From: Candidatus Izemoplasma sp.
Lineage (GTDB): Bacteria; Bacillota_I; Bacilli_A; Izemoplasmatales; Izemoplasmataceae
Reading direction: 5' to 3'
NCBI GenBank assembly: GCA_007132145.1
Contig: SLPE01000154.1
Coordinates: forward strand, 1 to 7,452
Length of the DNA stretch: 7,452 nucleotides
The notes beneath the pieces were generated by a model. That model saw nothing but the letters and a program-made list of their open reading frames with translations. It did no database searches and was not told the DNA's origin. Position 1 is the first letter of the stretch, and each line of letters opens with the position of its first letter. The translations under genes and the position numbers were made by a program. Of the stretch, positions 1 to 7,452 are shown in pieces.

Positions 1-550
1 AGACGGGAATCTTGAGTTTGCGCGCTTCGAGAATCGCGTTGCGGTCCTTGCGCGGGTCGACGACGAAGACGGCGTCGGGCAATGTGCGCATCTCCTGGAT
101 GCCACCGAGGAACGATTCGAGTCGGGCGAGTTCCTTGCGTAGGCCGATGACTTCCTTCTTCGGTAGACGCTCGAACGTTCCGTCTTTTTCCATCTGTCTG
201 ATCTGATGGAGTCTGCGGATGCTCTTGCGGATGGTCTTGAAGTTCGTCAAGGTGCCGCCGAGCCAACGTTTCGTCACATAGAACTGTTCGGCGCGTTTCG
301 CTTCTTCCTCGACGGAGTCGATCGCTTGCTTCTTCGTTCCGACGAAAAGCACTTTTCCACCGTTTTGACCGATTTCGAGGAATTTGTTGTAGGCGTCTTC
401 GATGTAGCCGACCGTCTTTTGCAAATCGATGATGTGGATACCGTTTCTCGATGTGTAGATGTAGGGTGCCATCTTCGGGTTCCAGCGACGTGTCTGATGT
501 CCGAAATGAACCCCTGATTCAAGCAGTTGTTTCATAGTGATGATAGCCAT
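1..550 (-). CDS. rpsB: 30S ribosomal protein S2, 5' part (runs off window edge)
   Basis: S2 is a structural protein of the small ribosomal subunit, added late in assembly and needed for S1 docking and translation initiation. The minus-strand frame from ATG 550-548 is open to the window edge and gives 183 residues, about three quarters of a normal S2. Recognisable S2 signatures are [19 protein letters not shown] near residues 9-27, [14 protein letters not shown] near 29-42, the [13 protein letters not shown] block and the [13 protein letters not shown] block. The start is fixed by AGGAGG at 562-557, 6 nt upstream; a second Met at codon 6 has no ribosome binding site of its own. It has its own promoter (660-688) and a structured leader, and tsf usually follows rpsB, which here would lie outside the window. 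It shares its orientation with the upstream B12 operon. The identification is very secure. Confidence 0.97.
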
Positions 551-578
551 GTGTTGCCTCCTGTTTTGATTGTCCTCC

Positions 579-638
579 ACGGTTGTTCCGTCCCACCGTC
601 CTCAAGGACGGCTCACGGTCCGGAGCGACGTCACCGTG
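579..638 (-). promoter_or_regulatory. rpsB 5' leader with tandem hairpins
   Basis: The untranslated leader between the rpsB promoter and its ribosome binding site can form three short stem-loops, given here as plus-strand positions. The first to be transcribed has 6-bp arms at 614-619 and 633-638 with a 13-nt loop. The second has 6-bp arms at 596-601 and 606-611 with a 4-nt loop. The third has 4-bp arms at 579-582 and 588-591. The arms reuse similar CCGTC/GACGG and ACCGT/ACGGT words, so alternative pairings are possible. Many r-protein operons are autoregulated through such leaders, including rpsB-tsf in enterobacteria. That this one binds S2 is only inference; I do not recognise it as a named RNA family. 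Confidence 0.45.
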
Positions 639-659
639 TGCGTATTTTTCGCTTTATGT

Positions 660-688
660 AGTATAACAAAAAAAAACCGGGGTTGCAA
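660..688 (-). promoter_or_regulatory. Sigma-A-type promoter of rpsB
   Basis: On the minus strand a -35 box TTGCAA (688-683) is followed by a 17-nt spacer and a -10 box TATACT (665-660). TG lies one base upstream of the -10, giving an extended -10 (TGTTATACT). The spacer carries a run of nine T residues. The predicted start is near 653, giving a leader of about 100 nt before the rpsB ATG. The -35 box lies only 6 bp beyond the stop codon of the ECF S-component gene. Confidence 0.8.
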
Positions 689-694
689 GTCTTT

Positions 695-1222
695 TCAACG
701 CTTTTCATGTGCGGCCGACGCCGATAACGCCGCGAGTTCCGTTTCCAAAGTCTTGTGAAGGGGGGTGAACAACCAAAGAATGGTCGCGAAATTGGATACG
801 GCCATGATGACTTCAAAAGGTAAGTCCGCCAAGAAATAGGGCCAGAGGTCGGTGATGCCGAACTCGAGGATTCGGAACGGGATGTAGACCCACCCGTAGA
901 CGAATCCGAAGACGAACCCGAAGACGGCGAGTTTGACTTCGCTCTTCGTTCTCCGCAGCACCGTGTGATAACTGATCGGAATCAAGAGCCAGGCCAAGAA
1001 CATCGGCGGCGTGTAGAGCGGATGGAAACTTCCCATGTAGAGGTTGTCGAAAAAGACGTAGACCGTGATGATCGCGACAGTCTCCCTGAACTTGAAGACA
1101 CTGGAAAACAAAACGATGAGCAATGTGGTGAACTGGACGTTGGGCACGATGATCAACAATTGTTCCTGGACGAATAGGATCGTCGTGCACATCGCCAACA
1201 CCAGCAGTCTTCTCAGTCTCAC
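695..1222 (-). CDS. ECF-transporter S component, probably for cobalamin or a corrinoid precursor
   Basis: This is a predicted integral membrane substrate-binding subunit of an energy-coupling factor (ECF) vitamin importer. The 175-residue product is almost entirely hydrophobic. Likely membrane segments are residues 5-26, 31-42, 46-66, 70-87, 97-118 and 130-153, which fits the six-helix S-component fold and its usual size of 160-200 residues. The block with FGFVFGFVYGW and YFLADLPFE resembles conserved stretches I associate with Bacillota S components; this is family resemblance, not a database result. The start is GTG 1222-1220, overlapping the TGA of the preceding gene as GTGA, with a purine-rich GAGGGGA about 12 nt upstream. 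The next Met, at codon 11, would cut into the first helix. Substrate is inferred from the upstream B12 riboswitch and the two DUF4430 partners. EcfA, EcfA' and EcfT are not in the window and would have to be shared from elsewhere. It does not obviously match CbrT or CblT from memory. Confidence 0.75.
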   Translation of the reverse strand: MRLRRLLVLAMCTTILFVQEQLLIIVPNVQFTTLLIVLFSSVFKFRETVAIITVYVFFDNLYMGSFHPLYTPPMFLAWLLIPISYHTVLRRTKSEVKLAVFGFVFGFVYGWVYIPFRILEFGITDLWPYFLADLPFEVIMAVSNFATILWLFTPLHKTLETELAALSASAAHEKR

Positions 1223-1635
1223 TCCGCGGTCTTCCCCTCAAGGGTCCTATGGACGAAGGTGTAGACGACGTCGTCTTCCAAGGGGATGCCGTCGATGCCC
1301 GTTCTGGATGGCGCACCGTCGATCAGGATTTCTATGAAGTCACGATGAAAATCGGTTTCGATGCCCTCGAGCGCGAGCAGTTTTCGTCCGAAGATCGGAT
1401 GCTCGTCGAAACGTGCATCGTGATGGGCCGCCAAGATGTCCGCCAAGGTGTCGTTCTCCTCGAAAGCGTGTTGCCTTTCCACGACCGTCTCTCCGCTCGC
1501 ATCGATGACGACGACGGATGCGACGCCTTGCGCCGTTGCACCCGAAGAAGGCGTGAGACTGGCGTATATCGCCGAAAACCCGCCGAACACGGCGAGCACG
1601 AAAAGACTCAAAGACAGTTTCATGTAGAGTTTCAC
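1219..1635 (-). CDS. Small membrane-anchored DUF4430 (transcobalamin beta-like) protein
   Basis: The 138-residue product has an N-terminal hydrophobic segment (about residues 7-27) with no lipobox cysteine, so it is probably anchored facing outward or cleaved as a signal peptide. Residues 39-132 match the DUF4430 pattern related to the C-terminal beta domain of transcobalamin and intrinsic factor: strand VASVVVIDASGE, NDTLADILAAH, the DFIEILIDG strand and PLEDDVVYTFVHR at the end. The same pattern occurs in the N-terminal domain of the protein encoded just upstream, so the two are paralogous domains. The start is GTG 1635-1633: GAAGGA at 1650-1645 lies 9 nt away, whereas ATG 1623-1621 is 21 nt away. 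That ribosome binding site overlaps the stop of the upstream gene, 13 nt away, indicating coupled translation. A role in binding cobalamin and passing it to the ECF S component is inferred from domain and context. Confidence 0.75.
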   Translation of the reverse strand: MKLYMKLSLSLFVLAVFGGFSAIYASLTPSSGATAQGVASVVVIDASGETVVERQHAFEENDTLADILAAHHDARFDEHPIFGRKLLALEGIETDFHRDFIEILIDGAPSRTGIDGIPLEDDVVYTFVHRTLEGKTAE

Positions 1636-1648
1636 GCTTTCACATCCT

Positions 1649-2818
1649 TCAATCGAAGCGATACGGGTTGATCGGTTGGGCGCTGTTGAAGTATGTATGG
1701 AGGCAGACGAGCGCCAAGAAACCTTGCGGTGTCGAGAACATCAGATCGGCTTCTTCATCGTCGAGTCGCCAGAGGAAGCTGCCGTCTTCTTGCATGTATT
1801 CGAGGAACATCGAGACGAGAGATGTCTCACCTTCCGCATAACGGGCGTCGCGCGGGTCTTCACCGACGGCGATCAATGCGATGATGACATGGGCGAAGGT
1901 CGCGGCGTTGTTGCCGAAGGAACTATGATAGAGTTCTTCGGTAACGACGTCGAGGATGTCGTCGATCAGTCCTTCGATGACGGGACCTTCATCCAACGAT
2001 AGTGCGAGCAAGACGAGACTCAAGGTGTCCAAGTCGATGTGTGAAAGATCACGCGCTTGCAAATCGGCGATGAACCCGTCTTTCAAGGTCTTGTTGTCGA
2101 TGCCGCCAGCGGCGAGCGCAAGCATCATCAACGCGTTCATGTAGGGCCAACCGAACTCGGCTTCCCCTTCGAGCGCTTCCGCGAAAGCGCCCGCGTCGAT
2201 GCCGAAAACCTCGTGCGTGAAAACCGCGCGGACGTATTCGCTCATCGTCTCGGGGGTTCGATCGTAGGGATTGACGCCGTGCGTAGCGACGTATGCATCC
2301 AAGTCGCCCGATAGCCTAAGTGCCAGCGCGACTTCCATGTGCGCGCCGTTTTCAGCATACAAGTACGTCTCCGCGTGGGAATGTGCCTTGAACGCTTCGA
2401 TGCCTTCATAGACCGATTCCGCAAGCGGGTCCCACCAGGCGCGACTGAACGTGACGACGTCGCCCGCTTCATAAGGCAATTCGGCGATGCCCTTCATCGC
2501 GAACTCTCCATTGATATCGATCGAAATGAAACTTCCATAGGGCGTATCGAGACACTCGATCCTCGTGAGCATCGGCATCTCACCGTCTCCGAAATCGAAA
2601 AGGTCGTAATCGACGTCGAAGTGCTCGAGCAAGATGTCGAACAATGTCTTTTCTTCGTCATCGCCGAGCGCATGGTCCACTTCGAGAGCGGACTCGCCGC
2701 TTTGAATGATCAGCGTGACGAGCGGTGTTTCCGTGGTGAAATATACATCGAATCCCTCGCATCCGGCTTGAAGACCGAACACGAGTAAAGCAAGTGCGAC
2801 AGAGAACAGTTTTTTCAT
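1649..2818 (-). CDS. Secreted transcobalamin-like protein: DUF4430 domain plus alpha-helical repeat domain
   Basis: The 389-residue product begins with a signal peptide (MKK then a hydrophobic stretch) ending at AGC, with Cys20 as a possible lipid-attachment site. The lipobox is poor, with Gln at -3. Residues 32-127 form a DUF4430/transcobalamin beta-like domain (VTLIIQSGE, EEKTLFDILLEH, SFISIDINGE, AGDVVTFSRAW). Residues 133-378 are a helical repeat region like the terpenoid-cyclase/prenyltransferase alpha/alpha barrel of transcobalamin, with recurring units such as PYMNALMMLALAAGG, DTLSLVLLALSLDEG, NNAATFAHVIIALIAVG and STPQGFLALVCLHTYF. Vertebrate cobalamin carriers have the same two kinds of domain in the opposite order. 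The protein is strongly acidic. The start is ATG 2818-2816, with AGGAGG 5 nt upstream. It is the first gene after a cobalamin riboswitch and terminator. The likely role is capture of cobalamin or a corrinoid at the cell surface. Domain calls are by motif reading, and B12 binding is inferred. Confidence 0.8.
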   Translation of the reverse strand: MKKLFSVALALLVFGLQAGCEGFDVYFTTETPLVTLIIQSGESALEVDHALGDDEEKTLFDILLEHFDVDYDLFDFGDGEMPMLTRIECLDTPYGSFISIDINGEFAMKGIAELPYEAGDVVTFSRAWWDPLAESVYEGIEAFKAHSHAETYLYAENGAHMEVALALRLSGDLDAYVATHGVNPYDRTPETMSEYVRAVFTHEVFGIDAGAFAEALEGEAEFGWPYMNALMMLALAAGGIDNKTLKDGFIADLQARDLSHIDLDTLSLVLLALSLDEGPVIEGLIDDILDVVTEELYHSSFGNNAATFAHVIIALIAVGEDPRDARYAEGETSLVSMFLEYMQEDGSFLWRLDDEEADLMFSTPQGFLALVCLHTYFNSAQPINPYRFD

Positions 2819-2854
2819 TTTGACCTCCTGATTTCAATGCAATGCGAGCAAGCA

Positions 2855-2881
2855 ATAAAAAAACCATCCTCCCAAGATGGT
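2855..2881 (-). terminator. Rho-independent terminator of the cobalamin riboswitch
   Basis: On the minus strand, arm ACCATC (2881-2876), a 7-nt loop and arm GATGGT (2868-2863) are followed by a T-rich tail through about 2855. It sits between the aptamer and the first gene of the B12 operon, some 45 nt before that gene's ATG, so it is the expected OFF switch when ligand is bound. The stem is short (6 bp) but directly followed by seven T residues. Confidence 0.8.
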
Positions 2882-2885
2882 GTCC

Positions 2886-2926
2886 GTTTAATGAATTAAA
2901 CCGCAAAAACGTTTAACCGATAAACG
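2886..2926 (-). promoter_or_regulatory. Hairpins between riboswitch aptamer and terminator (expression platform)
   Basis: Two AT-rich inverted repeats lie between the aptamer and the terminator. Transcribed first is a 6-bp stem with arms at 2921-2926 and 2910-2915 and a 5-nt loop. Next is a 6-bp stem with arms at 2896-2901 and 2886-2891 and a 4-nt loop, only 4 nt before the terminator stem. One may correspond to the P13-like hairpin that makes a kissing contact with the aptamer in many cobalamin riboswitches, but I could not prove that pairing. I did not find a convincing antiterminator complementary to the terminator arms. Confidence 0.5.
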
Positions 2927-2958
2927 TACGACTCATACCCAGGAGCGTATTGTTTTCG

Positions 2959-3099
2959 GGTCAGGTAGGTCTACCGGCTTAGCATCGTCCTACTATGCGC
3001 CTTCCCGCTTTCGCAGTGGCATCCGCATTTCGTCCGCATCACGGTTGCTGGGACAGCCCGGGATTCACACCCGGTTCCCTGTTGGGGTCACACCTGACC
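2959..3099 (-). ncRNA. Cobalamin riboswitch aptamer
   Basis: Reading the minus strand from 3099 down, the conserved cobalamin riboswitch blocks occur in the right order. The closing stem P1 is GGTCAGG (3099-3093) paired with CCTGACC (2965-2959). Then come the GGGAA...GGTGTGAATCCC block (3079-3060), the GGCTGTCCC...GCAAC core (3058-3040), GCCACTG (3020-3014), GGGAAGGC (3006-2999) and the B12-box-like AAGCCGGTAGACCTACC (2980-2964). The element binds a cobalamin and represses downstream expression when bound. It has a promoter just upstream (3112-3140) and a terminator downstream (2855-2881), so control is probably by premature termination. It regulates the three genes from 2818 to 695. Which cobalamin form it prefers cannot be read with confidence. 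Confidence 0.95.
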
Positions 3100-3111
3100 T
3101 TCCACACCTTA

Positions 3112-3140
3112 AGTGTATTGAGATGGGTTGTGAATGTCAA
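3112..3140 (-). promoter_or_regulatory. Promoter of the riboswitch/B12 operon
   Basis: On the minus strand a consensus -35 TTGACA (3140-3135), a 17-nt spacer and a -10 TACACT (3117-3112) place the start near 3105, just before the riboswitch P1 stem. It diverges from the dut promoter; the two -35 boxes are 17 bp apart. A 14-bp inverted repeat (3133-3146) overlaps this -35 box. Confidence 0.78.
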
Positions 3141-3146
3141 GACATT
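3133..3146. repeat. 14-bp inverted repeat between divergent promoters
   Basis: AATGTC, a 2-bp AA centre, then GACATT form a perfect 6+6 inverted repeat. It overlaps the -35 box of the B12 operon promoter and lies 11 bp upstream of the dut -35 box. It could be an operator for a dimeric repressor acting on one or both promoters, or a chance palindrome. No regulator family is recognised. Confidence 0.35.
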
Positions 3147-3157
3147 TCAAGTGCGAG

Positions 3158-3186
3158 TTGCAAAAACCGTCTTCCTGTCTTATAGT
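3158..3186 (+). promoter_or_regulatory. Promoter of dut
   Basis: A -35 box TTGCAA (3158-3163), a 17-nt spacer and a -10 box TATAGT (3181-3186) predict a start near 3193. That leaves a short leader of about 26 nt before the dut ATG. The -35 sequence is identical to that of rpsB, with the same spacing. Confidence 0.75.
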
Positions 3187-3218
3187 ATAAACGACATCTC
3201 CTGAAAGGATTGATTGAC

Positions 3219-3659
3219 ATGCGCGGTTTCAAAGTCGCGAAAGGCTATGAAAAGGCATCCGTCGTCATGCCCGGCCGTAGCACGGAATACAGTGCGGGAT
3301 ACGACTTCACGACATGCAAGGACTTGACCATCGAAGCAGGAAGGATCGAGCGTGCCGAGACCGGCGTCAAGGCGTTCATGATGGATGATGAAGTCCTGAA
3401 AATCTACCCCCGCAGTTCCTTGCCCGTCAAATTCGGGGTGACGATTCCCAACAATGTCGGCATCATCGATGCCGACTATTTCGGCAACGAAGCCAACGAC
3501 GGCGCCATTTTCATCCAACTCTTGAACTTTTCAAAAGACCCGGTCACCATCCCTGCGGGAACCCGTATCGCACAAGGAGTCTTCACGAAATATCTCACCC
3601 TTGAAACGGAAACGCCCACAAACAGAAAACGCAAAGGCGGTTTCGGCAGTACCGGATGA
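3219..3659 (+). CDS. dut: dUTP diphosphatase (trimeric dUTPase)
   Basis: This enzyme hydrolyses dUTP to dUMP and pyrophosphate in the cytoplasm, which limits uracil incorporation into DNA and supplies the precursor for dTMP. The 146-residue product carries all five trimeric dUTPase motifs: AGYDF (26-30), PRSS (64-67), GIIDADYFGN (81-90) with the catalytic Asp, GTRIAQGVF (114-122) and the C-terminal GGFGSTG arm (140-146). Motif 3 continues as EANDG, the variant I associate with a Bacillota dUTPase branch, rather than the YRGE of the E. coli type. The start is ATG 3219-3221, because GAAAGGA (3203-3209) lies 9 nt upstream. An in-frame TTG at 3210 would directly abut that ribosome binding site and is unlikely. 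It is monocistronic: its own promoter lies at 3158-3186 and a terminator follows immediately. It diverges from the B12 operon and converges on the fab operon. Confidence 0.95.
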   Translation: MRGFKVAKGYEKASVVMPGRSTEYSAGYDFTTCKDLTIEAGRIERAETGVKAFMMDDEVLKIYPRSSLPVKFGVTIPNNVGIIDADYFGNEANDGAIFIQLLNFSKDPVTIPAGTRIAQGVFTKYLTLETETPTNRKRKGGFGSTG

Positions 3660-3661
3660 TG

Positions 3662-3707
3662 AAAAGAGCGCTCCACCGTTGATGACGGCGGTGGAACGCT
3701 CTTTTTT
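3662..3707. terminator. Two-way terminator between dut and fabZ
   Basis: A long, nearly perfect stem combines AAAGAGCG and TCCACCG on the left with CGGTGGA and CGCTCTTT on the right, with one internal mismatch and a loop of about 8 nt. A T-run follows on the plus strand (3702-3707), and an A-run on the left side (3662-3665) supplies a shorter T-run for minus-strand transcripts. It begins 3 nt after the dut stop and ends 23 nt before the fabZ stop, so it serves both convergent units. Confidence 0.9.
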
Positions 3708-3729
3708 CATGCCTCGGAGCGTTTCGACA

Positions 3730-4158
3730 TCAATCGGGTGCGACCGCGAACGTCATCGTCGCCTTGCAGGCGAGTTCATCGCCGACACGGGCGATTGCGT
3801 CCGCCTTGCCGATGACGCCTCTCATTTTGGTCAGTTCGACATGAAGCGTCAACGTATCGCCCGGTTTCACCATGCGCTTGAATCGACAATCGTCGAGGCC
3901 GGCGAATAACACCTTTCTTCCCTTGAACCGTTCTTCACGCAACAAGAGCACTGCACCCGCTTGTGCGAGGGCCTCGACGATCAAAACACCGGGCATCACG
4001 GGAAAATCGGGGAAGTGACCTTTGAAATAGGACGCGTCCGCATCGACATGTGTCTTGGCGCGGATGCTTTTTCCAGGCTCGATCGCCTCGACTTCGTCGA
4101 TGAGGAGAAAGGGTTCCCGATGCGGGATGACGTCTTTGATCTGCGTCTTCGTCAACAT
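3730..4158 (-). CDS. fabZ: 3-hydroxyacyl-ACP dehydratase FabZ
   Basis: FabZ removes water from 3-hydroxyacyl-ACP to give trans-2-enoyl-ACP in each cycle of type II fatty acid synthesis. The 142-residue product is of normal size, with the hot-dog-fold signatures IPHREPFLLID (11-21), the catalytic His48 in GHFPDFPVMPG and the catalytic Glu62 in VEALAQAGA. Glu in the second motif points to FabZ rather than FabA. Two adjacent ATGs are possible: 4161-4159, which overlaps the fabF stop as ATGA, and 4158-4156. GGAGG at 4170-4166 sits 4 nt from the first and 7 nt from the second, so the second is chosen; the difference is one residue. It is the last gene of the operon, followed by the terminator at 3662-3707. 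In streptococci accB lies between fabF and fabZ and accCDA follow fabZ; none is present here. Confidence 0.95.
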   Translation of the reverse strand: MLTKTQIKDVIPHREPFLLIDEVEAIEPGKSIRAKTHVDADASYFKGHFPDFPVMPGVLIVEALAQAGAVLLLREERFKGRKVLFAGLDDCRFKRMVKPGDTLTLHVELTKMRGVIGKADAIARVGDELACKATMTFAVAPD

Positions 4159-5399
4159 CATCGTCCCTCCCATTTCTTGAAAACGAGCGTCGCGTTGTGC
4201 CCGCCGAAACCGAGCGAGTTCGACAAGGCGACGCGGATATCCTTTTCGACACCGACGTTGGGTGTGTAATCCAGGTCGCATTCAGGATCGGGCGTCTCGT
4301 AGTTGATCGTCGGCGGGACGAAGCCCTCTTGAAGCGCGAGAAGTGTGAAAATCGCCTCGATTGCACCGCTTCCGCCGAGCAAGTGTCCGGTCATCGATTT
4401 CGTCGAATTGATCGCGATGTCATAGGCGTGTTCCTTGAACAACCGTTTGATCGCCAAGGTTTCCGTTTTGTCGTTGAGCGGGGTCGACGTCCCGTGCGCA
4501 TTGATGTGATCGATATCGGCGGGGTCGACGCCTCCGTCTTCTAGCGCGAGACGCATGCAGTTCATCGCGCCCGTCCCTTCAAGGTCCGGCGCCGTGATGT
4601 GCGTCGCGTCGCAGGTGGCGCCGTAACCGACGATTTCACCATAGATGCGGGCCTGCCGTTTCAAAGCGCCTTCGAGCGTCTCGAACATCATGCAGCCCGC
4701 TCCGTCGGCCATCACGAAACCGTCACGGTTCAAATCGAAAGGCCGAGAGGCCTTTTTCGGGTCGGGATGCTTGCTCAGGGCGTGCATGGCGCTGAAGCCG
4801 CTGATGCCGAATTTCGTCATCGACGCTTCGCTGCCGCCGGTGATTGCGACCTCGAGGTAGCCGTCGCGAATGGCACGGAATGCCTCCCCCATCGTATTGG
4901 CCGCACTCGCGCAAGCGGTCGTCGTCGAAAGGGCCGGTCCGGTCAAGTCGTATTTGATGGCGATCATGCCGGGCGCAATGTTGATGATGACCATCGGCAC
5001 CCAAAAAGGCGACACCCGATGGAATCCCTTCTCGCGCGCCTTGTCGAGTTCACTCGCCATCGTTTCGAGTCCGCCGATGCCGCTTGAGACGTAGATGCCG
5101 ACACGACTCCTGTCCATCGTCTCGAAATCGATGCCGCTGTCGGCGATCGCTTGATCGGCGGCGACGAGGGCGAACTGGGAAAAACGGTCCATGCGTCTCA
5201 GTTGCTTCTTGCCGAAGTACTCGAGAAAATCGAAATCACGGATTTCGCCTCCGTAACCGATGGCGATGTCGTCGGTTTCGTAGCGACGAATGAAATCGAT
5301 GCCGGAGCGACCGCTTTTGGCGGCGTTCCAACTCGTCTTGATGTCGTTGCCGAGCGGATTGAGCGTACCCATGCCGGTAATGACGACGCGGCGTTTCAT
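4158..5399 (-). CDS. fabF: Beta-ketoacyl-ACP synthase II FabF
   Basis: FabF condenses malonyl-ACP with the growing acyl-ACP chain, the elongation step of fatty acid synthesis. The 413-residue product is full length and begins MKRRVVITGMG. The catalytic triad is in place: Cys163 in TTTACASAAN, His302 in NAHGTSTPLND and His339 in KSMTGHLLGG, with Lys334 and the C-terminal gate loop LGFGGHN (396-402). The nucleophile context TTTACASA differs slightly from the common DTACASG/STACASG forms but keeps the active site. The ATG (5399-5397) overlaps the fabG stop by one base (TGATG), and a G-run at 5413-5408 inside the end of fabG provides the ribosome binding site. The reading frame stays open further upstream to 5786, but that part overlaps fabG and shows no family similarity. 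Its stop overlaps the fabZ start region. Confidence 0.97.
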   Translation of the reverse strand: MKRRVVITGMGTLNPLGNDIKTSWNAAKSGRSGIDFIRRYETDDIAIGYGGEIRDFDFLEYFGKKQLRRMDRFSQFALVAADQAIADSGIDFETMDRSRVGIYVSSGIGGLETMASELDKAREKGFHRVSPFWVPMVIINIAPGMIAIKYDLTGPALSTTTACASAANTMGEAFRAIRDGYLEVAITGGSEASMTKFGISGFSAMHALSKHPDPKKASRPFDLNRDGFVMADGAGCMMFETLEGALKRQARIYGEIVGYGATCDATHITAPDLEGTGAMNCMRLALEDGGVDPADIDHINAHGTSTPLNDKTETLAIKRLFKEHAYDIAINSTKSMTGHLLGGSGAIEAIFTLLALQEGFVPPTINYETPDPECDLDYTPNVGVEKDIRVALSNSLGFGGHNATLVFKKWEGR

Positions 5400-6139
5400 C
5401 ACAACATCCCCCCGTTCACGTGCAACGTCTCCCCGGTGATGTAGGCGGCCGCCTCGGAAGCGAGAAACGTCGCCGCGGCGGCGACTTCTTCGGGACGTCC
5501 GAAACGACCGACGGGAATTTGTGAAAGGTAGCTCGTGACGATTTCTTCGCTCAAGGCATCGGTCATCGGCGTTCGGATGAGACCGGGCGCGACAGCGTTG
5601 ACGGTCACGTTCTTTTTCGCGAATTCCTTGGCGAGCGCTTTGGTCAACCCGATGATGCCCGCTTTCGTCGCCGCGTAGTTCGCCTGGCCGGCGTTGCCCG
5701 TGAATCCGACGACGGACCCGATGTTCACGATTCGTCCGTACTTTTGCTTTAGCATGCCGCGGGCGACGTGTTTGCACAAGTTCCACGTTCCTTTGAGATT
5801 GACCGCGACGACTTCGTCGAAGGCTTCTTCACCCATCCGCAACATCAGTTGGTCGCGGGTGATGCCGGCGTTGTTCACGAGGATGTCGAGTCCGCCGAAA
5901 CGTTCGACAGTCTTTTCGACCAAAGTCCGGCTCTGGTTGAAATCCGAGACATCCGCGCGAATGGCGAAGGCGTCCTTTCCGGTCGCGACGACGTCTTCGA
6001 CGAGTTCTTCCGCCCCGGCGAGGTCGTTCATGCAATGCACGGCGATACGGGCGCCCTCTTCTGCGAAGGCGCGTACGAGCGCTCGGCCGATGCCGCCCGT
6101 AGCGCCCGTGATCAATACACGTCGATCCGTGAATCTCAT
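5399..6139 (-). CDS. fabG: 3-oxoacyl-ACP reductase FabG
   Basis: FabG performs the NADPH-dependent reduction of 3-oxoacyl-ACP to 3-hydroxyacyl-ACP. The 246-residue product is a typical short-chain dehydrogenase/reductase: cofactor loop TGATGGIG (11-18), Asp63 in the RADVSD segment, NNAG (89-92), Asn114, Ser142, and the YxxxK pair Tyr155/Lys159. The tail GETLHVNGGML is characteristic of FabG. The ATG (6139-6137) overlaps the fabD stop as ATGA, with AAGGGG about 12 nt upstream within fabD, so translation is probably coupled. Its position between fabD and fabF confirms the fatty acid role over other members of the dehydrogenase family. Confidence 0.97.
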   Translation of the reverse strand: MRFTDRRVLITGATGGIGRALVRAFAEEGARIAVHCMNDLAGAEELVEDVVATGKDAFAIRADVSDFNQSRTLVEKTVERFGGLDILVNNAGITRDQLMLRMGEEAFDEVVAVNLKGTWNLCKHVARGMLKQKYGRIVNIGSVVGFTGNAGQANYAATKAGIIGLTKALAKEFAKKNVTVNAVAPGLIRTPMTDALSEEIVTSYLSQIPVGRFGRPEEVAAAATFLASEAAAYITGETLHVNGGML

Positions 6140-7059
6140 CTTTGGCTCATCCCCTTCAAATAACGAATGGTTTCATGGAACTCCACGATGGTTCCGATGT
6201 TCAACGTGACGATGTCCGGATCGATTTTCCGGATGAGACCGCTCAAGGTCTTGCCCGGACCGATTTCCACGAATGTGGTGTAACCGTCGGCAAGCATCGT
6301 AGCGATCATGTCGAAAAACCGCACGGGCCGTGTCATCTGCATCGTCATATCGCGCTTCGCAACGGTAGCGTGCAAACGGCCGTCGAGATTCAGATAGAGC
6401 GGTTTTGAAGCAGGGGTCAGGACCACACCTTCAAGATGTCTTTCAAAAGCGTCGGCCGCGGTTTGCATGTAAGGCGTGTGAAACGCGCCTTCGACCGCGA
6501 GTGGAACCGCCCGTTTCACGCCTGATGAAGAGACATCTTCCATCAGACGCGCCATCGCATTCACAGGTCCCCCGACAACGGTCTGCATCGGCAGGTTCCG
6601 ATTCGCCACATGGCAATCGGGATGTCGTTGCAACAACGCTTCAACGGCGTCGCTTCCTCCGATGAGTGCCACAAGCGACGTCTTTTCGCGTTGCGCGGCA
6701 TCCGACATGTGCCTACCCCGTACCCTAACGAGGTCGAAACCCTCAGCGAAGGTATAAAGCCCGGCATCATGGAAAGCGGCGTATTCACCGAGGGACAGAC
6801 CGGCGCATCCTTCGCTTTCGAAACCTTCCTCTTTCATGGCCTCCCGCACGGCGACGCTCATCGCATAGATGGCCGGTTGCGCGCAGGCGGTCTTTTTCAA
6901 CCGCTCGCCTTCTTTGAACATCGCTTCGAGCAAGCCGCCGCCGAAACGATCCTCGGCCATGTCCAGACGAGCCTTCACGACAGGAAGGTCCGTGTAGAGG
7001 TCATACCCCATCCCGACGTGCTGACTCCCTTGGCCCGCATAGACGAATGCCGTCTTCAT
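6136..7059 (-). CDS. fabD: Malonyl-CoA:ACP transacylase FabD
   Basis: FabD transfers malonyl from CoA to the acyl carrier protein, supplying the elongation substrate. The 307-residue product is the usual length, with the oxyanion-loop motif AGQGSQ (8-13), the nucleophile Ser89 in GLSLGEYAAF, Arg114 in RVRGRHM (the carboxylate-binding Arg position), and the catalytic His194 in EGAFHTPYM. GLSLGEY replaces GHSLGEY, as in several Gram-positive FabD enzymes. Glu190 stands where many homologues have Ser (SGAFH). EIGPGKTL near 264-271 is the conserved C-terminal motif. The ATG (7059-7057) overlaps the fabK stop as ATGA. Confidence 0.96.
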   Translation of the reverse strand: MKTAFVYAGQGSQHVGMGYDLYTDLPVVKARLDMAEDRFGGGLLEAMFKEGERLKKTACAQPAIYAMSVAVREAMKEEGFESEGCAGLSLGEYAAFHDAGLYTFAEGFDLVRVRGRHMSDAAQREKTSLVALIGGSDAVEALLQRHPDCHVANRNLPMQTVVGGPVNAMARLMEDVSSSGVKRAVPLAVEGAFHTPYMQTAADAFERHLEGVVLTPASKPLYLNLDGRLHATVAKRDMTMQMTRPVRFFDMIATMLADGYTTFVEIGPGKTLSGLIRKIDPDIVTLNIGTIVEFHETIRYLKGMSQR

Positions 7060-7452
7060 CGGTGGTTCTCCTTGAAACTCCGACTGTTTTCGAAGAGGTC
7101 TTCGAGAATCGTCTTGACAGGTCGGATGTTCTTGACGAGACCGGCGATTTGCCCGGCCATGAACGACCCTCCGTCGAGGTCCCCCTCATCGACGGCGCGC
7201 TGCAAGGACCCGAGTGTCATCTTTTCGAGTTCATGCAAGTCGACCCCTTCTTTCGCCATGGCGACATAGGACCGCGCCATCTTGTTTTTCAAGACGCGGA
7301 CGGGGGCTCTCGTGTCGCGTCCCGTGACGATCGTGTCCGAATCGCGCGCGGTAACGACTTTGTCCTTATAGTTCTGATGAATCGGGCATTCCTCACTCGC
7401 GAGCAGGACCGTGCCGACTTGCACGCCCTTGGCGCCCAAGGCGAAGGCGGCG
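7056..7452 (-). CDS. fabK: Enoyl-ACP reductase II FabK, C-terminal part (runs off window edge)
   Basis: FabK is the FMN-dependent enoyl-ACP reductase of some Gram-positive bacteria, replacing the triclosan-sensitive FabI. The last 131 residues are visible, and the frame is open to the window edge. The segment AAFALGAKGVQVGT is the FMN-phosphate-binding end of the 2-nitropropane-dioxygenase/FabK TIM barrel. It is followed by SEECPIHQNYKDKVV and the FabK-like tail FMAGQIAGLVKN. The catalytic region lies beyond the window. The apparent initiation codon at 7439 is an internal TTG (Leu), so it is not a start. The stop TGA (7058-7056) overlaps the fabD ATG. The related nitronate monooxygenase is an alternative by sequence, but the position directly before fabD, as in streptococci, favours FabK. 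Confidence 0.9.
   Translation of the reverse strand, partial: AAFALGAKGVQVGTVLLASEECPIHQNYKDKVVTARDSDTIVTGRDTRAPVRVLKNKMARSYVAMAKEGVDLHELEKMTLGSLQRAVDEGDLDGGSFMAGQIAGLVKNIRPVKTILEDLFENSRSFKENHR

Follow-up and report, generated by a model that had tools for sequence, protein, structure and literature searches.

A stretch of 7,452 nucleotides from Candidatus Izemoplasma sp. (contig SLPE01000154.1, positions 1 to 7,452; hereafter the window) contains three genes, which we call T, D and S, behind a cobalamin riboswitch. T encodes a predicted lipoprotein of the transcobalamin-like type, D a small protein with a single beta domain, and S a CbrT-like S component of the kind found in energy-coupling factor (ECF) transporters. 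We consider it very probable that T captures cobalamin, or a related corrinoid, on the cell surface, from where it would be handed on to S. Because the riboswitch, the conserved operon, the CbrT-like S component and a phylum-wide linkage between DUF4430 domains and S components all point this way, B12 capture by T for ECF uptake is very likely, the binding step itself being predicted. At the level of sequence, the riboswitch, the gene order and its conservation, the DUF4430 domain of T and the similarity of S to CbrT are established.

The T-D-S operon and its conservation

The locus comprises the following features.

3112..3140, minus strand: sigma-70-like promoter (TTGACA-17-TACACT) at the upstream edge of the riboswitch, 10/12 consensus matches
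2947..3112, minus strand: cobalamin riboswitch aptamer, RF00174 (85.3 bits, gathering cut-off 31.5, model positions 1-189 of 189, E = 1.6e-20)
2863..2881, minus strand: terminator-like hairpin and T run (8-pair stem, T-rich tail) between the riboswitch and the T gene
2824..2829, minus strand: ribosome-binding site AGGAGG of T, as read from the letters
1649..2818, minus strand: T, transcobalamin-like predicted lipoprotein of beta-alpha order, 389 amino acids
2759..2818, minus strand: T residues 1-20, signal with lipoprotein-type Cys20
2435..2725, minus strand: T residues 32-128, DUF4430 / transcobalamin-type beta domain (Pfam and Foldseek)
1652..2428, minus strand: T residues 131-389, predicted alpha/alpha toroid
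1219..1635, minus strand: D, 138-amino-acid protein with a single beta domain and a hydrophobic N terminus
695..1222, minus strand: S, 175-amino-acid CbrT-like ECF-type S component, whose GTG start overlaps the D stop by 4 nucleotides

The open reading frame (ORF) and signal first proposed for T are present, and the B12 riboswitch that had been placed in front of it was recovered 128 nucleotides upstream of the T start codon. It is the sole cobalamin riboswitch found in the window's genome, which is 67.7% complete. Between positions 500 and 3300, four promoter-like sites were counted versus a mean of 1.6 (standard deviation 1.5) in shuffled sequences; the two terminator-like sites of the region do not exceed the shuffles (mean 3.2). 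Judged by its position, the hairpin at 2863..2881 is likely part of the riboswitch switch. T, D and S are closely packed on one strand and keep their order in relatives; on sequence grounds, they form an operon. Upstream of the riboswitch, a dUTPase gene (72.3 bits) lies on the opposite strand, with fatty-acid synthesis genes beyond it, and rpsB lies downstream of S, the latter genes being named by eye from their translations.

Related loci were collected by one scan of GTDB contigs with a single peptide pattern around FSTPQ, which misses relatives that lack the pattern. The 20 loci obtained are labelled Izemoplasma/Izimaplasma, Mollicutes, Mycoplasmatota, Tenericutes, Bacilli or Bacillales. 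The beta domain precedes the toroid in all 20. T is preceded by a cobalamin riboswitch in 19/20, the exception being a contig (L008) that begins 37 nucleotides before the ORF, and S lies downstream in 18/20, the two exceptions (L004 and L012) being contigs that stop 93 and 65 nucleotides after T. D follows T in 17/20 loci by profile, and also in L008 by tblastn. Among the 11 loci with listed ORFs, a dUTPase-like gene was named by eye upstream in 11/11 and an rpsB-like gene after S in 10/11, L013 ending earlier. As far as the contigs extend, all 20 thus share this gene order, which is therefore more than chance. L013 has a second cobalamin riboswitch upstream of the first operon, in a region (1801-3444) that goes on to encode an adenosyltransferase-like protein (PF01923, E = 2.1e-12), followed by a small protein and by a divergent S component.

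We also surveyed the family to which the window belongs, in 49 genomes that include the window's own. Full-length T was found in 42/49, and in one more (G037) it is split over two contigs; 48/49 genomes match the T profile if matches confined to the signal or spacer are counted. A cobalamin riboswitch is present in 44/49 genomes, 38 of which have a single one over the cut-off, and S is present in 43/49. The five genomes without a riboswitch (G002, G016, G020, G027 and G039; 65-84% complete) are also without T and S, and G019 is without S only. PF02310 B12-binding domains occur in 45/49 genomes, including the window's; the four genomes without them (G021-G024) form one genus, in which the operon is present. 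The CbiQ/EcfT family was found in 46/49 genomes and was not found in the window's 67.7%-complete genome. A FecCD (BtuC-type) permease match above 270 bits was obtained in 3/49, the remaining matches being below 45 bits. Two genomes have an additional cobalamin riboswitch some 1 kb upstream of a strong FecCD-type permease (G012:C2:123401-125611 and G013:C26:90472-92663), and these genomes likely also carry a BtuCDF-like system.

G046, a single contig listed as 99% complete, has no T; its locus has the riboswitch and S together with a beta protein and an adenosyltransferase-like one. At this locus (L132, 5084-7724, minus strand), where the adenosyltransferase-like protein matches PF01923 (E = 4.1e-10), the gene directly before that of the beta protein, at the place expected for T, encodes a coiled-coil-rich protein of 253 amino acids.

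Proteins T, D and S

The signal of T ends in Cys20, which is invariant in 19/19 aligned T relatives. The lipobox of the window's T, QAGC, is less typical, LxxC being found in 17 of the 18 other rows. T is predicted to be a lipid-anchored surface protein, anchoring and location both being predictions. In the alignment, many T relatives (P0002, P0006-P0013, P0018 and P0019) have a coiled-coil-like spacer between lipobox and beta domain, and coiled-coil Pfam matches were obtained in up to 7/19 T-family members; the window's T is without the spacer. Another relative, P0017, was judged by eye to have two tandem beta domains before the toroid.

The beta domain that had been claimed at residues 32-127 was recovered as a DUF4430 (PF14478) match at residues 57-124 (33.6 bits, cut-off 23.8). 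In an AlphaFold2 model of T (predicted local distance difference test [pLDDT] 90.5; predicted template modeling score [pTM] 0.85), beta strands lie at 33-128, where strands 69-75 and 80-87 come directly after helix 59-66. The helical domain claimed at 133-378 agrees with model helices at 131-379, and the model predicts an alpha/alpha toroid fold. The combination of domains expected from structure prediction was thus borne out: when the model was compared with the PDB using Foldseek, intrinsic factor ranked first and the human transcobalamin beta domain second, and the best structural matches of the toroid include intrinsic factor and transcobalamin. The beta domain alone matches the human transcobalamin beta domain (5no0) with a template modeling score (TMt) of 0.70. 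It also matches RUMGNA_00854 of Ruminococcus gnavus (3u7z, "putative metal binding protein"; TMt 0.81), which has the same beta domain but, unlike T, was solved as a chain with a single domain of 101 amino acids.

A beta-domain profile of 24 rows, four of them from outside the window's family, matched 3u7z in the PDB (E = 1.9e-5) and haptocorrin weakly (E = 0.8). The best PDB match of the whole-T profile is intrinsic factor, over the toroid (E = 0.0036 and 0.0038). With a broader profile of the toroid only, the best PDB match was an unrelated chain (E = 0.11), and intrinsic factor was absent up to E = 10; the E value of 0.0036 therefore stays borderline, and so does the link in sequence between the toroid and the animal carriers. 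When 27 toroids were compared with all of Pfam up to E = 10, the lowest E value, 4.8e-4, was that of one member with PF01122 (eukaryotic cobalamin-binding protein); Prenyltrans matched 3/27 toroids (best E = 0.038), and the window's own toroid had no match. A search of the 49 family genomes with PF01122 did not recover T. Given these negative results for PF01122, we rejected T as a member of the transcobalamin family proper and do not file it there; of the two domains to be sought with profile hidden Markov models, DUF4430 was found and the PF01122 alpha domain was not. NCBIfam had no family matching T or S, and its one match to D was below threshold and attributed to chance.

A candidate cobalt-coordinating histidine was also discarded. 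H260, four residues before the invariant D264, occurs in the window only among 27 rows and decides nothing; such a histidine is mostly absent from intrinsic factor and haptocorrin (PMC11107200).

The second gene of the operon encodes another domain of the same type. The T profile matches D at query positions 80-165 (E = 2.9e-5), and the D family, which was assembled from synteny, aligns with the T beta domain in hhalign at 99.7%. DUF4430 was detected at E up to 1 in 22/27 D-family members and was not detected in the window's D; a protein search with D returned D alone. D has no lipobox cysteine and is predicted to be membrane-anchored or secreted.

For S, the family profile has one PDB match up to E = 10, namely 6fnp_A (E = 8.2e-6), with profile positions 2-165 aligned to 8-175 of the chain. 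6FNP is ECF-CbrT, a vitamin B12 transporter (PMC5997447). The model of S (pLDDT 93.8) has ECF S components as its best structural matches; 6fnp is not among the structural matches listed, an absence that carries no weight. The ECF S-component fold is thus a prediction of the model, and the profile match points to a CbrT-like member.

DUF4430 and S components across the phylum

Of 195 genomes surveyed in the phylum, 33 contain DUF4430; 27 of these 33 lie outside the window's family, and the regions around the matches were examined in all 27. In 24/27, DUF4430 has an ECF S component nearby on its own strand: 21 were recognised by the S profile, two by Pfam (G205 and G101), and one is G197. The order in G205 and G101 is beta protein, membrane protein without a Pfam match at the T-component position, double ATP-binding cassette (ABC) ATPase and Pfam-recognised S component. 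G197 has two matches about 370 nucleotides apart, one to DUF4430 below the cut-off and one to S, both with in-frame UGA. No S was found near DUF4430 in 3/27: the contig of G117 ends 79 nucleotides after the match, and the stretches from G100 and G231 contain no S. Taking the DUF4430 and S surveys as covering the same 195 genomes, the two co-occur in 24 genomes versus 7.1 expected, with 9 having DUF4430 only and 18 S only (Fisher p = 1.5e-12, or 1.5e-9 without the window's family, values that kinship among the genomes makes too small).

The arrangement of the domains varies outside the family. Beta-toroid fusions recur in L117, L120, L125, L127 and L128, and in L129 by the position of the DUF4430 match. 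At L105, a toroid-like gene (Prenyltrans 31.5 bits, cut-off 26.5) is followed by a separate beta gene and then by S; L103 appears to have the same order, with a Prenyltrans match below the cut-off (21.1 bits). Separate toroid-like and beta genes before S, in the order of the animal fusion, are seen at L103 (3529-5808), L105 (4337-6741) and L106 (3318-5864), the toroid-like protein of L106 being a candidate.

A cobalamin-class riboswitch was found at 20 of the 28 loci scanned, one of the 20 (L132) belonging to the family genome G046; none was found at L103-L104, L106-L107, L112-L113, L116 and L118. S is followed by CobA/BtuR in L112 and by an adenosyltransferase of the PduO type in L115, and in L103 the toroid-like gene comes after a MetH-like one. 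At L102 (375-3983) and L110 (2168-6005), a cobalamin-class riboswitch is followed by genes for a beta protein, a membrane protein where a T component would be expected, a double ABC ATPase and an S component of the ECF type; these operons are likely dedicated ECF modules with a beta-domain partner. L126 (3488-4681, minus strand) encodes a protein of 397 amino acids with a sub-cut-off DUF4430 match at 95-150 and a partial cobalamin riboswitch match upstream (43.4 bits), and no S component was found in the stretch examined. S-like frames with at least three in-frame UGA codons were seen in G069, G081, G082, G086, G118, G121, G124, G151, G161 and G197, of which only G197 is also among the DUF4430-positive genomes. 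Mollicutes that read UGA as tryptophan would be expected to show in-frame UGA.

Function, alternative readings and known systems

These data suggest the following mechanism. When B12 is scarce, the riboswitch would let transcription proceed past the terminator-like hairpin. T would act like a clam-shell whose halves, the beta domain and the toroid, close over a single cobalamin, as those of transcobalamin do; human transcobalamin domains expressed apart assemble only with cobalamin present (PMC5599065), and isolated domains can bind cobalamin (PMC11107200). D would provide a second beta domain at or near the membrane beside S and may assist or receive the ligand, as a lid, a second site or a hand-off partner. 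S would then carry the ligand inside, energised by an EcfAA'T module encoded elsewhere, as is the case for the S components of group II ECF transporters (PMC5997447).

More tentatively, the operon may form an ECF importer with an extracellular relay, in which lipid-anchored T hands B12 to membrane-tethered D docking on S, so that S would be fed by a substrate-binding protein. The usual description of ECF transporters has S itself binding the substrate. Another division of labour, which we think rather unlikely, is that D caps the toroid of T in place of the fused beta domain; the sandwich would then be made of two proteins, T and D, with toroid before beta as in animals, and the domain fused to T would serve as a second site or a spacer. 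D indeed directly follows T and also has a transcobalamin-type beta domain, and haptocorrin is reached better by the D-family profile (E = 0.019) than by the fused-domain profile (E = 0.8), both of which include rows from outside the family. Moreover, toroid-like and beta domains are encoded separately in the order toroid, beta, S at L105, and at L103 with its sub-cut-off Pfam match, and the separately expressed domains of human transcobalamin assemble when cobalamin is added (PMC5599065). However, the fused beta-alpha order is kept in 20/20 relatives, which suggests that the fused pair works together, and the pTM of the whole T model hints at a defined domain arrangement.

The ligand and the activity of T were weighed in the same way. 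It is unlikely, in our view, that the operon imports another corrinoid, such as cobinamide or a different cobamide, and not cobalamin itself. ECF-CbrT also mediates cobinamide uptake (PMC5997447), and a riboswitch need not sense the transported form; the adenosyltransferases and the MetH-like gene near homologous operons are not decisive, as they fit any corrinoid. One result limits the case for B12 capture: in the structure search, terpene cyclases match the T toroid as well as intrinsic factor does. A further reading would make the toroid an enzyme, either terpene-cyclase/prenyltransferase-like or glycosidase-like, with a link to B12 that is regulatory only. We regard this as highly improbable, since T is predicted to be extracellular, the window's toroid lacks the terpene-cyclase motif DXDD, which 3/27 toroids contain, and the toroid is in fixed linkage with a DUF4430 domain and a CbrT-like S component. 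Surface-anchored capture of cobalamin or a corrinoid by T, as put forward in the original prediction, is thus favoured by the riboswitch, the beta domain, the toroid matches, the CbrT-like S and the adenosyltransferases or MetH-like gene beside some homologous operons. That prediction had identified the capture protein and had missed the importer-type operon of three genes, with its second beta-domain protein D.

The SLBB superfamily was defined by Burroughs et al. in 2007 (PMC1796856). According to the text of that paper, secreted transcobalamin-like domains occur with an alpha/alpha toroid on either side in low-GC Gram-positive bacteria among others, the toroid being C-terminal in a Bacillus example. 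A second SLBB protein is often found in the operon, and CbiO/CbiQ neighbours are general, if not universal. The hosts usually lack key enzymes of B12 synthesis, B12 scavenging was predicted, and the animal carrier was proposed to derive from Gram-positive bacteria by lateral transfer (PMC1796856). T resembles these proteins in its beta-grasp domain, C-terminal toroid, signal and second beta protein D; unlike the operons described there, with CbiO-like ATPase and CbiQ-like neighbours, that of the window has a CbrT-like S and a riboswitch and no CbiO/CbiQ. The reversed domain order, with the beta domain first, holds in the window and in 20/20 relatives, but we rejected it as a novelty, since it had already been described (PMC1796856). 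T thus belongs to the bacterial transcobalamin-like type known since 2007, an assignment that is well supported and not new. What is added here, by comparison with the text and not the figures of the 2007 paper, is the recurrent link to a CbrT-like S and a cobalamin riboswitch, and the survey of arrangements. No experimental study of a bacterial DUF4430 B12 binder was found in the literature searched by title and start of the abstract, subscription journals lying mostly outside that search.

Animal transcobalamin, intrinsic factor and haptocorrin share the toroid and beta domain with T and are the closest solved folds; unlike them, T has the reversed order, does not match PF01122 and is predicted to be lipid-anchored. 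The fold of BtuF differs from that of T, and a FecCD match above 270 bits was found in only three of the 49 family genomes. BtuCDF is similar in that an extracytoplasmic B12-binding protein feeds an ABC-type importer (PMC5997447). S is similar over nearly its full length to the 6FNP chain of ECF-CbrT from Lactobacillus delbrueckii, but is encoded with beta proteins of extracellular type, whereas CbrT lies in an nrdJ-cbrS-cbrT-pduO cluster (PMC5997447).

If correct, our reading would tie the 2007 prediction of bacterial B12 scavengers to the CbrT-type class of ECF importers and to the B12 riboswitch. It would also offer small, testable proteins with which to ask whether extracellular binding proteins can feed ECF S components. 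Finally, the bacterial arrangements, with beta domains alone, toroid-like and beta domains in separate genes, and beta-toroid fusions, bear on the origin of the toroid-beta carriers of animals.
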